Below, one piece after another: positions 23,232-26,012 of a stretch of DNA of 26,012 bases. Position 1 is the first letter of the stretch, and every line of letters starts with the position of its first letter. The position numbers and the translations under genes are program-made. The notes below the pieces were generated by a model. That model had not been told where the DNA came from, ran no database searches, and worked only from the letters and a program-made list of their open reading frames with translations. Source of the stretch: a virus. The DNA lies in the IMG/VR virus record IMGVR_UViG_3300044641_002868, positions 1-26,012 of that record. One strand, given 5' to 3'.

Positions 23232-23621
23232 ATGATTGCTCCTCCCATACATGGCCGCAACATCGCCTCGGAGACGACCTTCTCCTTACCGTTGGCGCCG
23301 ACTGCCAATCGCTTGTTCGTCGCGTTTCTAAGGGGTGGGAAGGCGGCTCGCGCAAAGACCAAAGATTATCTCGCCTGGTCTCGCGAAGCCTCTGAGCGTC
23401 TTGCTGAGCAGCGCGTCCCGCATATCCCTGGTTACTACGAGATGTCGATCATCATCCCGGCATCGACCCGTGGCGACATCTCCAACCGTATCAAAGCAAC
23501 CGAGGACATCGTCGTCGCCTGTGGCGTCGTCGTCGATGATCGTTACGCCGACAAGGTGTCGATTGAGCGCGGCAACGTCGAGGAGATGCTGATCTGTATT
23601 AAGTCGCGTGAGGAAAAATAA
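23232..23621 (+). CDS. RusA-family Holliday junction resolvase, 129 aa
   Basis: ATG 23232 with AGGCGG 5 nt upstream; a GTG six bases earlier is in frame. The start (TFSLPLAPTANRLF, about residues 16-29) and the signature region RGDISNRIKATEDIVVACG, then VVDDRYADKVSIER match RusA enzymes, which cut four-way junctions. The first acidic residue (Asp82), Lys88 and Asp102/103 are present. The second Asp of the usual R-x-D-x-D-N is Ser84 here. Such changes occur in phage variants, but activity is not certain. It is the first gene of the rightward replication cluster. Confidence 0.78.
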   Translation: MIAPPIHGRNIASETTFSLPLAPTANRLFVAFLRGGKAARAKTKDYLAWSREASERLAEQRVPHIPGYYEMSIIIPASTRGDISNRIKATEDIVVACGVVVDDRYADKVSIERGNVEEMLICIKSREEK

Positions 23622-23622
23622 G

Positions 23623-24135
23623 ATGGCGTCATCAGCCGCATTAGAACTGCATAGGAAGCATTTGGAGCGCCGCGCACGCCTCGGTGCGCCCCCAAAGCAG
23701 CCGAAGGTATTCATCCCTCGTCTCGTTGAGCCTCCGCCTGTCGTTCCAATCGAACCTCCGCCGCCTCCCGCGCCAGAGCCTGTCGATGAAGAAGCGCTGC
23801 AACGTGCGCGCTTGTCTCGCATGCGCCGCATTCAAGCGATCATCGCGGTCATTGAGCGCCGCTGCGGATTGAAGGCTGGGGATCTAAAGAGCGAAAGTCG
23901 CAAGCAGAAAACGGTGATCCCGCGCCAGGTCGCGATGTTCATCATCTACCACCACACGAGCCTGGCGACGCCGGCTGTCGGTCGTCTGTTCGGCGGGCGC
24001 GATCACTCCACCGTCGTCTACGCCAAGAACAAAATCATGGATCTCGTCGAGCAGGGCGATGAACAGGTGCTGAGCCTGATCCATGAGGTCTGCGTTTATG
24101 TCGGCCTGCCCACATATCACTACTGGGGCTGCTAA
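23623..24135 (+). CDS. DnaA domain-IV-like DNA-binding protein, 170 aa
   Basis: ATG 23623 with AGGAAA 7 nt upstream; a GTG at 23608 is in frame. Residues about 1-25 are basic, 30-55 are a proline-rich linker (VEPPPVVPIEPPPPPAPEPV), and about 68-150 are a domain like the C-terminal domain IV of DnaA. The signature is GGRDHSTVVYAKNKI (Arg126-Asp-His-Ser-Thr130), preceded by PRQVAMFIIYHHTSLATPAV. This domain recognises origin DnaA boxes. There is no AAA+ ATPase part. It ends with TAATG into the next gene. A role in recruiting or blocking host DnaA, or in phage origin recognition, is likely but not proven. Confidence 0.82.
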   Translation: MASSAALELHRKHLERRARLGAPPKQPKVFIPRLVEPPPVVPIEPPPPPAPEPVDEEALQRARLSRMRRIQAIIAVIERRCGLKAGDLKSESRKQKTVIPRQVAMFIIYHHTSLATPAVGRLFGGRDHSTVVYAKNKIMDLVEQGDEQVLSLIHEVCVYVGLPTYHYWGC

Positions 24136-24353
24136 TGGCGCGCATTTCTCTCCAAACGCAGCTCGCCGCGATCGACGCAGCAATCCACATCTTGCGCCGC
24201 TACCAGCTCCCGCCTCGTTCGCAGGCGGATCTAATTGCTGAGCAGCTGGGATCACAGCGCGATCATGTCGCTGAGAAGCTCTCCGAGTTCAACAAGCAGG
24301 CTGAGAACCGTTCGCGGTCGAAGATGCGCGAGCGCTTGAGGAACGACCTATGA
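24135..24353 (+). CDS. 72-aa protein of unknown function
   Basis: ATG overlaps the DnaA-like stop by one base; its TGA overlaps the next ATG. The product is helical and strongly charged (AIDAAIHILRRYQLPPRSQA, EKLSEFNKQAENRSRSKMRE), with no known motif. The basic C-terminus might contact nucleic acid. It is part of the tightly packed replication operon. Confidence 0.62.
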   Translation: MARISLQTQLAAIDAAIHILRRYQLPPRSQADLIAEQLGSQRDHVAEKLSEFNKQAENRSRSKMRERLRNDL

Positions 24354-25168
24354 GCAATCCCCGCATGCACGTCATCTCTCTCGGCGCCGGCGTCCAGTCT
24401 ACGACAATGGCGCTTATGGCCGCATATGGTGAACTTGGCCCAATGCCTGACGCGGCTGTGTTCGCTGACACAGGATCTGAGCCGAAAGAGGTCTACGAGC
24501 ATTTGGAAAGGCTGATCAAGTTCCTGCCGTTCCCGGTGCATGTCGTTTCTAAAGGCAACATTCGCGACGACATCGTTAGCGCATCCAGCGGTCGGACGCG
24601 GTTTGCATCAATCCCGTTTTTTATTCGCAAGACGAATGGCGAAACCGCGATGGCGCGTCGTCAATGCACGAGCGAATACAAAATTGAACCTATCCGCAGA
24701 AAGCTGCGTGAGATGCTGGGTTATGAAAAAGGACAGCGCATACCGCCTGGCAGCGTTGAGGTCTGGATCGGCATCTCAACAGATGAGATCCAGCGCATGA
24801 AGGACGCCAGAGATAAATGGCAGCAGCACAGATGGCCGCTTATCGACGCCAGGATGAGTAGGCAAGACTGCATAAATTGGATGCAGCGGCATGGTTGGTC
24901 GGCTCCGAAATCCGCCTGCACTTTCTGCCCTTATCGATCCGATGCCGGTTGGAGAGATATGCGCGCTAATGACCCTGCGTCGTTTCAGGAGGCGATCGAG
25001 ATCGACGGCATCCTGAGAGATGTCGGCGTCCACAGTAAATTTGTTGGGACGCCTTACATCCACCGAAGCCTCGTGCCGCTGGCTGACGTCGATTTGTCCA
25101 CGCCTGCTGATCGCGGTCAGCGGGAGTTCGGATTTTTGCAGGAGTGCGACGGGATGTGTGGGGTCTGA
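24350..25168 (+). CDS. PP-loop ATPase, PAPS-reductase-like phage protein, 272 aa
   Basis: Residues 9-18 (ISLGAGVQST) are a PP-loop nucleotide site of the adenylate-forming type, followed by AAVFADTGSEPKEVYEHLER, the strand-helix seen in PAPS reductase and DndC-like proteins. Cysteines lie at 106 (RRQCTSEYKIEP), 190 and 193 (CTFCPYRS), and 266 and 270 (CDGMCGV), which could hold an iron-sulfur cluster or carry sulfur. Length fits phage PAPS-reductase-domain proteins. Such enzymes activate a substrate by adenylation, often to add sulfur or modify RNA or DNA. The actual substrate is unknown. It sits between replication genes with ATGA overlap upstream. Confidence 0.8.
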   Translation: MSNPRMHVISLGAGVQSTTMALMAAYGELGPMPDAAVFADTGSEPKEVYEHLERLIKFLPFPVHVVSKGNIRDDIVSASSGRTRFASIPFFIRKTNGETAMARRQCTSEYKIEPIRRKLREMLGYEKGQRIPPGSVEVWIGISTDEIQRMKDARDKWQQHRWPLIDARMSRQDCINWMQRHGWSAPKSACTFCPYRSDAGWRDMRANDPASFQEAIEIDGILRDVGVHSKFVGTPYIHRSLVPLADVDLSTPADRGQREFGFLQECDGMCGV

Positions 25169-25169
25169 C

Positions 25170-25403
25170 ATGAGCCAAAAGCATCACGCCATCGCATTCG
25201 TCGCTCACCATGACCGCTCTCAATGGGAGCGGCTGGGATGGGTCTACCTCTACGACGAGGATCGCAACGCGGCTGTCGGCAGCGTCTACGCCTGGTCTGG
25301 CGCCGGCGCGCCTGAGTATCCGGCTGACGATCTGTTTCTGAAGATGGATCGCGAGAAGCAGCTCGCCGATTTCGACGCCGTATGGCCGGGAGACGATCAA
25401 TGA
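25170..25403 (+). CDS. 77-aa protein of unknown function
   Basis: Starts MSQKHHAIAFVAHHDRSQWE one base after the previous stop; the frame is open further upstream but overlaps the PP-loop gene. The product is soluble and acidic (VYLYDEDRNAAVGSVYAWSG, PADDLFLKMDREKQLADFDA). No motif is recognised. The ATGA overlap with the following initiator-like gene indicates co-translation. Confidence 0.6.
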   Translation: MSQKHHAIAFVAHHDRSQWERLGWVYLYDEDRNAAVGSVYAWSGAGAPEYPADDLFLKMDREKQLADFDAVWPGDDQ

Positions 25404-26012
25404 GCCTCGCCGACACGATCATCGCAATGGCTGCGGCTGGATGTTCGGCAGAACAGATGGCCGAGGTCGCTCGTCAGTTCAAGCAGCAAGACCAGGAAGG
25501 GTTAGCCGGGAGACGCGCGAACGATGCCGAGCGTCAGCGTCGTCGTAGAGCGAAAGCGAAGGAAGATGTCACAGAATGTCACGTGACGTCACGTGATGTC
25601 ACGTTAGTCACGCGTGACCCTTCCCCCTCTCTTTCCCCCTCTTCTTCTTCCCCCCCTATAACCCCCCTAATAACTACACCCCCTATCTCACCCCCATCCG
25701 AAAACGCGCGCGGGGCGCGCTCGCTCGCTGTGCAGGCCGCCTTCGATGCGTTTTGGCGCCGATGGCCGCACAAGGTCGGCAAGCCTGCCGCCGAGAAAGC
25801 ATTCGCGAAAGTCTCCGGCGAGATCGAGGCGATCCTGATCGGGATCGATCGCTACATCCGCGACAAGCCCCCGGATCGCCCCTGGTTGAACCCTGCGACG
25901 TTTCTGAACCAACGTCGCTGGGAGGACGCGCCTGCGGAAACCTTCCAGGCGTCACGGCAAGAGCCGGCGAAAAAAATCAGCGCAGTCACGCAAGCGATTA
26001 TGAATTTAGAGG
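25400..26012 (+). CDS. replication initiator-like protein (partial, runs off the right edge)
   Basis: Begins at the ATG overlapping the upstream TGA and stays open to the window end (at least 204 aa). Residues 1-35 are helical (MSLADTIIAMAAAGCSAEQM), 36-60 very Arg/Lys rich, 60-105 a Ser/Pro/Thr low-complexity linker, and about 110-180 carry FDAFWRRWPHKVGKPAAEKA, then PWLNPATFLNQRRWED, a signature of the C-terminal part of many phage replication proteins of the lambda-O/DnaT-like organisation. The linker codons coincide with the iteron array and pyrimidine tract. Role as initiator is inferred from this motif, gene order and the origin-like DNA. Confidence 0.68.
   Translation, partial: MSLADTIIAMAAAGCSAEQMAEVARQFKQQDQEGLAGRRANDAERQRRRRAKAKEDVTECHVTSRDVTLVTRDPSPSLSPSSSSPPITPLITTPPISPPSENARGARSLAVQAAFDAFWRRWPHKVGKPAAEKAFAKVSGEIEAILIGIDRYIRDKPPDRPWLNPATFLNQRRWEDAPAETFQASRQEPAKKISAVTQAIMNLE
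25568..25611 (+). repeat. five GTCAC iterons at 10-nt period (candidate replication origin)
   Basis: GTCAC occurs at 25568, 25578, 25588, 25598 and 25607, spacing 10, 10, 10 and 9. Bases 25579-25596 also form a perfect 18-bp palindrome (TCACGTGACGTCACGTGA). The period does not divide by three, so successive copies fall in different codon frames and the encoded residues do not repeat; the pattern must serve DNA. Iterons within the initiator gene are the arrangement known for lambda ori. Confidence 0.65.
25618..25657 (+). other. 40-nt uninterrupted pyrimidine tract beside the iterons
   Basis: Forty consecutive C/T bases with a 7-C run (25650-25656), followed by further C-rich stretches to about 25690 broken by short AT groups (TATAA, TAATAACTA). 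It encodes the Pro/Ser linker of the initiator-like gene. Such tracts can be easily unwound or form triplex structures and may mark the melting region of the candidate origin. Confidence 0.5.

Follow-up and report, generated by a model that had tools for sequence, protein, structure and literature searches.

A short iteron array and a C-rich tract within a phage initiator gene as a probable replication origin

Can a stretch of DNA that codes for a protein also be the place where a phage begins to copy its genome? This question is raised by the end of the 26,012-nt viral sequence analysed here (IMG/VR record IMGVR_UViG_3300044641_002868, positions 1 to 26,012), which we refer to as the window. 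A gene on its plus strand starts with an ATG at 25400 and continues beyond the window, which stops at 26012. Within this gene, five GTCAC copies lie on the plus strand (25568–25572, 25578–25582, 25588–25592, 25598–25602 and 25607–25611) with a start-to-start spacing of 10, 10, 10 and 9 nt. The reverse complement, GTGAC, adds two inverted, minus-strand copies (25583–25587 and 25614–25618). The array also contains two perfect palindromes, one of 18 bp (TCACGTGACGTCACGTGA, 25579–25596) and one of 12 bp (GTCACGCGTGAC, 25607–25618). A preliminary description of this DNA had reported the five copies at a period of about one helical turn, with an 18-bp palindrome among them, and both were found precisely at the positions given above.

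With 7 copies in 60 nt, the GTCAC/GTGAC array is the top 5-mer cluster of the entire 26-kb window, while the best clusters in 60 Markov-1 sequences of 26 kb held 3–5 copies. The seven copies occupy codon phases 0, 1, 0, 2, 0, 0 and 1. We used two null models that preserve the protein. When codons were redrawn according to the codon usage of the window, at least 7 GTCAC/GTGAC copies appeared in 9 out of 20,000 draws, and a 5-mer cluster of 7 in none out of 3,000. Permuting synonymous codons within the gene gave 7 copies more often (299 out of 5,000, approximately 6%), but this is a weaker null, because the array itself supplies many of the valine and threonine codons of the gene. The use of several codon phases and the outcome of the redraw uphold the earlier argument that selection on the protein is not sufficient to explain the array. 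The array is conserved, nearly unchanged, between the window and the related locus L002: 1 out of 19 codons differs within it, as against 39 out of 129 outside it (one-sided Fisher p = 0.015). Next in rank among the 5-mer clusters of the window is one at 25821–25880 (6 copies in 60 nt, apparently GATCG-rich), which falls in the part of the same gene that codes for the C-terminal domain.

The gene product matches phrog_270 and phrog_9474 (replication initiation) as well as phrog_9327 (primosomal) with E values from 6e-15 to 2e-12; the profile match covers the C-terminal half (PHROG 270, E 6e-15; PHROG 9474, E 8e-15). No Pfam family, the O family included, matched the window protein. The DUF1376 N-terminal domain was likewise absent from it and matched 2 out of 29 aligned relatives. 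An AlphaFold2 monomer model built from a 29-row alignment (mean pLDDT 82, pTM 0.44) places helices at residues 3–12 and 17–59, with a block pLDDT of 93–98 across residues 1–50, followed by a low-confidence linker without secondary structure (residues 60–100) and a helical C-terminal domain (helices 101–170). It is the linker that encodes most of the repeats and the entire C-rich tract described below. Judging by these family matches and the model, the gene can be regarded as a phage replication initiator composed of a helical N-terminus, a linker and a C-terminal domain of replication/primosomal proteins.

The model also suggests how the parts might work. The N-terminal helical region (residues 1–36; 25400–25507, plus strand) may dimerise, and the arginine-rich end of the long helix (residues 37–59; 25508–25576, plus strand), in which the motif xERxRxxRxR is retained across relatives, is the putative DNA-binding part. 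The C-terminal helical domain, FWxxWPxKxGKPxA ... DKPPDRPWLNPATFLNQ (25700–25939, plus strand), also found in relatives with different N-termini, is a candidate contact for the helicase or its loader. A search of PDB folds with the model yielded nothing at E<=0.001, a PDB sequence search with the window protein gave no match, and neither did tblastn with the N-terminal part, possibly as a result of low-complexity filtering.

Directly after the iterons comes an all-pyrimidine run (25618–25657, plus strand) that is, as previously described, exactly 40 nt long; it is the sole pyrimidine or purine run of at least 15 nt in the window. It belongs to a longer C-run tract (25618–25695, plus strand) with six C runs of 5–7 nt. 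The region 25618–25700 is 57% C with one G, and it is strand-asymmetric rather than AT-rich. Between 25620 and 25694 the tract contains three copies, each of 21 nt, that follow one another every 27 nt exactly. Compared with the complete element of L002 (see below), the C runs are kept and both A-boxes are lost, which suggests that the tract has diverged from a conserved C-run/A-box element. The earlier view that a C/T tract replaces the usual AT-rich segment fits the composition, but the tract is not a mere exchange of AT for pyrimidines; L002, a close relative, retains the A-boxes. Without them, the window may carry a weakened element. When G-quadruplexes were allowed, the tract folded at -36 kcal/mol with RNA parameters (shuffles -22, sd 11). 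A unimolecular G-quadruplex is possible for the six C runs of the window; as a general principle it was rejected, because AT-rich relatives have just two C runs and it is therefore no shared requirement.

To place the locus in context, we analysed relatives found by protein searches, which comprised virus and Bartonella loci. Alignment A1 offered no segment of sufficient conservation for a profile search of viral contigs. The same order recurs in them: an N-terminal domain, short repeats, a C-rich or otherwise biased tract and a C-terminal domain. The N-terminal domain is of the short basic type in many relatives and DUF1376, Lin1244_N, Phage_rep_org_N or another helix-turn-helix type in the remaining ones; the C-terminal domains vary too. 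The iteron changes as well. GTCAC is used by the window, L002, L027 and L038, and GTAAC/GTTAC by L004, L009, L023 and L034, while others carry CTCGCGAAGC (L005), GAAACG (L006), GGCGAC (L089), AGACGC (L040) or further iterons. In many relatives the protein motifs are kept and the GTCAC spacing is gone, a situation that the preliminary description had named as speaking against an origin. Literally this is what we observed, yet most of these relatives carry another iteron there, and a different iteron at the same place is what a changing initiator–site pair predicts.

For each of 66 related genes and 177 neighbouring control genes, we compared the best 6-mer cluster with codon redraws from the same locus; genes that had been found through the element entered this test regardless of repeats. 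At p<=0.05, significant arrays were present in 32 out of 66 related genes and 9 out of 177 neighbours. At p<=0.01 the counts were 20 and 3 (Fisher 4e-10), although the status of a few of the 66 as initiators is doubtful (e.g., L158 and L112), which weakens the array signal, and some related genes are near-duplicates. The spacing is mostly 9–12 nt with a peak at 10–11 nt, and 29 out of 32 significant arrays use more than one codon phase. Some related genes, e.g., L007, L008 and L010, have no significant array in this test, and they count against the origin reading.

In many relatives the iterons are followed by an element with the consensus AAAGAAA..CCCCC-ACA-CCCCC..AAAGAAA. The form AAAGAAA-N-YCCCCC-ACA-CCCCCY-AAAGAAA, or a near variant, occurs in most relatives of the short basic type. 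A loose-pattern scan of IMG/VR returned many chance matches and several dozen genes with the layout, many of them initiators with unrelated N-termini. In 22 protein-found genes, proline codons inside the element are CCC, CCT or CCA and never CCG (0 out of 93), whereas CCG is the commonest proline codon outside it (147 out of 406). The first C run is read in all three codon phases, whether the genes were found by protein or by element. Taken together, CCG avoidance and the three phases indicate that the constraint acts on the DNA.

The element is single-copy in 37 out of 38 phage records, the exception being two overlapping matches at one site. Its strict form was present in 1 out of 289 sampled bacterial genomes, namely a Bartonella genome already known to hold it. 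A blastn search with the 47-nt element against annotated phages gave two weak microvirus matches only, and a search for its sequence as text in papers returned nothing relevant. The papers searched, which include few subscription journals, contained no description of the C-run/A-box element, of 5-bp iterons at 10-nt steps or of the minimal basic-helix N-terminus. An element-like sequence also occurs on the minus strand of L158 (position 4293 of the reverse complement), with no significant repeat array; family counts suggest that this gene encodes a head maturation protease (phrog_976 matches 1 out of 13 A3 proteins) rather than an initiator. In relatives that lack the C-run element, other short tandem repeats follow the iterons (L265, 1400–1440; L271, 1440–1465; L006, 3920–3950; L276, 1400–1450), among them (ACAGAT)n, (TCTGTA)n and a CATTACCAACAC repeat. 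These are possibly alternative opening tracts.

Does replication start at the element? The window is a fragment that ends at the site, and the evidence from GC skew comes from related contigs. The cumulative GC-skew minimum lies at most 5% of the genome length from the element in 13 out of 31 phage contigs, some of them related and some incomplete, with 3.1 expected if genomes are taken as circular (p 3.6e-6). C runs are able by themselves to shift the minimum locally. With third codon positions only and the effect of gene orientation removed, the count was again 13 out of 31 (KS p 4e-5). The maximum tends to lie opposite the element (median 0.41). Roughly half of the related contigs have their minimum at a distance of over 10% from the element. 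The GC-skew inflection that the preliminary description proposed as a check is seen, in related phages, as minima that cluster at the element.

Some neighbouring genes recur as well. A stand-alone protein with the DnaA C-terminal helix-turn-helix adjoins the initiator in several of these phages; Bac_DnaA_C-type genes lie at 23608–24135 in the window, 3086–3577 in L002, 494–985 in L265 and 1848–2306 in L267. The replication module of the window also includes a phosphoadenosine phosphosulfate reductase-like gene (24350–25168; phrog_424, 2.6e-50), and a gene of this kind is located directly upstream of the initiator in RHph_TM3_3_3.

The site might be an origin that is read not by the product of its own gene but by the stand-alone DnaA_C protein or by host DnaA. 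The Bac_DnaA_C domain is well recognised (E 9e-22) and encoded 1.3 kb upstream, and a similar gene stands beside the initiator in L002, ctOK67 and RHph_TM3_3_3. We nevertheless consider such a reader unlikely: iterons vary among relatives, with a basic helix or other DNA-binding domain preceding them in the same gene, and the lambdoid origins studied so far bind their own O protein (PMC7466680). TTWTNCACA is absent from the window, and an origin built on DnaA boxes was rejected on this ground. Short palindromes and a protein with a basic helix would fit a regulator too, and the sites are located in an early operon, so that the array could be an operator through which the gene product or another regulator controls this operon while replication starts elsewhere. 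We regard this as quite unlikely, given that a scan of 24900–26012, a weak test, revealed no promoter-like sites near the array, that relatives from different operons also have the array in mid-gene, and that GC-skew minima cluster at the element.

It is very unlikely that the repeats are a by-product of repetition at the protein or mutational level (a proline-rich low-complexity linker, slippage) with no function as DNA. The linkers are indeed low in complexity, and the within-gene permutation reaches the copy number of the window in approximately 6% of cases. Against this, both strands carry copies, these occupy several codon phases and the bases between them differ, neighbouring genes seldom show arrays (9 out of 177), and the element avoids CCG while being read in three phases.

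In our opinion, the window quite probably holds the theta origin of a temperate phage. Lambda-like and intragenic, it would be situated in the linker of the initiator gene and bound by the gene's own product. The placement of the origin inside the initiator gene, as first proposed, is supported by the arrays found at the same place in relatives, by the replication-initiation, primosomal or DnaD-like families to which those genes belong, and by the clustered GC-skew minima. The GTCAC/GTGAC iterons would be contacted by the arginine-rich end of the long helix, with the protein most likely acting as a dimer. With sites spaced by one helical turn, several dimers could stack along the same side of the double helix and deform the adjoining DNA. 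The strands would then open, and the helicase would be placed, at or beside the strand-asymmetric C-run tract; the C-terminal domain would recruit the helicase or its loader, and theta replication would begin. We infer all of these steps, from binding and dimerisation to the opening of the strands in the C-run tract, helicase recruitment and replication itself. A point against this reading is that a C-rich tract is hard to melt. The A-boxes may be the part that melts, and the C runs a barrier or the captured single strand; the window, in which the A-boxes are absent, is an awkward case for such a mechanism. Initiator and site would form one transferable unit, in which the iteron is lineage-specific and the opening element near-constant in many relatives.

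A broader reading, which we offer tentatively and rate at somewhat less than an even chance, is that the near-constant and roughly mirror-symmetric AAAGAAA-YCCCCC-ACA-CCCCCY-AAAGAAA is a portable origin core, common to differing initiators and acting as a strand-opening or helicase-entry site, with one branch served by minimal initiators of a single basic helix. If so, it would be common to phages that differ in DNA-binding domains, iterons and C-terminal domains, and the minimal initiators of that branch, reading short palindromes, would represent a novel class. The wider element merits follow-up. The initial observation of the array and tract is confirmed, and its meaning as an origin has good support. 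Few phage origins have been mapped to date. With a recognisable element and iterons next to it in the initiator gene, origins could be located directly in the genomes of uncultured phages, and each initiator could be matched to the site it binds. Since the iteron changes at a fixed position, the co-evolution of initiator and site, as well as replicon incompatibility, would become testable by comparison. Finally, a constant C-rich core beside the iterons challenges the rule that AT-richness alone defines an opening segment.

How does this locus compare with known systems? In phage lambda, gene O has four 18-bp iterons; the segment that follows is A-rich, and its purines lie on one strand (PMC7466680, PMC5043065). 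The origins of lambda and of Stx phages likewise have iterons midway along the initiator gene and then a strand-asymmetric opening segment (PMC7466680, PMC5043065). The lambda iterons are set at 20–24-nt steps and the opening segment is AT-rich, whereas the window has 5-bp half-sites at 9–10-nt steps and a C-rich tract; the very short iteron had been singled out early as unlike lambda, and it is. The window protein is not recognised as an initiator of the lambda O type, and O-like PHROGs are matched by some relatives only. The record of Lactococcus phage Tuc2009 states that orf16 contains the origin, and that of Staphylococcus phage 80alpha puts a putative origin in gp20. Both records place the origin in a DnaD-like or replication-initiation gene, as we propose for the window, but the repeats are followed by G/A-rich or AT-rich tracts with no pair of C runs. 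Together with lambda, these records make intragenic origins an already known kind.

Some initiators of the DUF1376, Lin1244_N and Phage_rep_org_N types share the C-terminal domain of the window or have the C-run element after iterons of their own, and their N-terminal domains are larger. The genes of EF62phi and JNU_P2 match the Lin1244_N-type protein of L045, without the C-run pair. In Enterococcus phage EF62phi (L272), repeated ATAGCAA/GCTAT-like sites at 1860–2010 precede an A-rich tract with no C runs.

Eukaryotic bZIP proteins also combine a basic helix with short palindromes. The TGACGTCA and CACGTG sequences of the window resemble bZIP and bHLH sites. In bZIP proteins, however, the basic part precedes the helical region, while in the window protein it follows, and neither the PDB sequence search nor the fold search linked the two. 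For a bZIP-like pairing on the palindrome, we have the monomer model with its helix 17–59 and basic end.

Among cultured phages, Rhizobium phage RHph_Y1_10 offers a further comparison. Its iterons are GTAAC/GTTAC instead of GTCAC, and AAAGAAA boxes are absent. Its DNA replication protein (QIG68247.1) nonetheless has a short basic N-terminus like that of the window protein and shares its C-terminal domain; the repeats occupy the corresponding position, and TTCCCCCACACCCCCTT is present.
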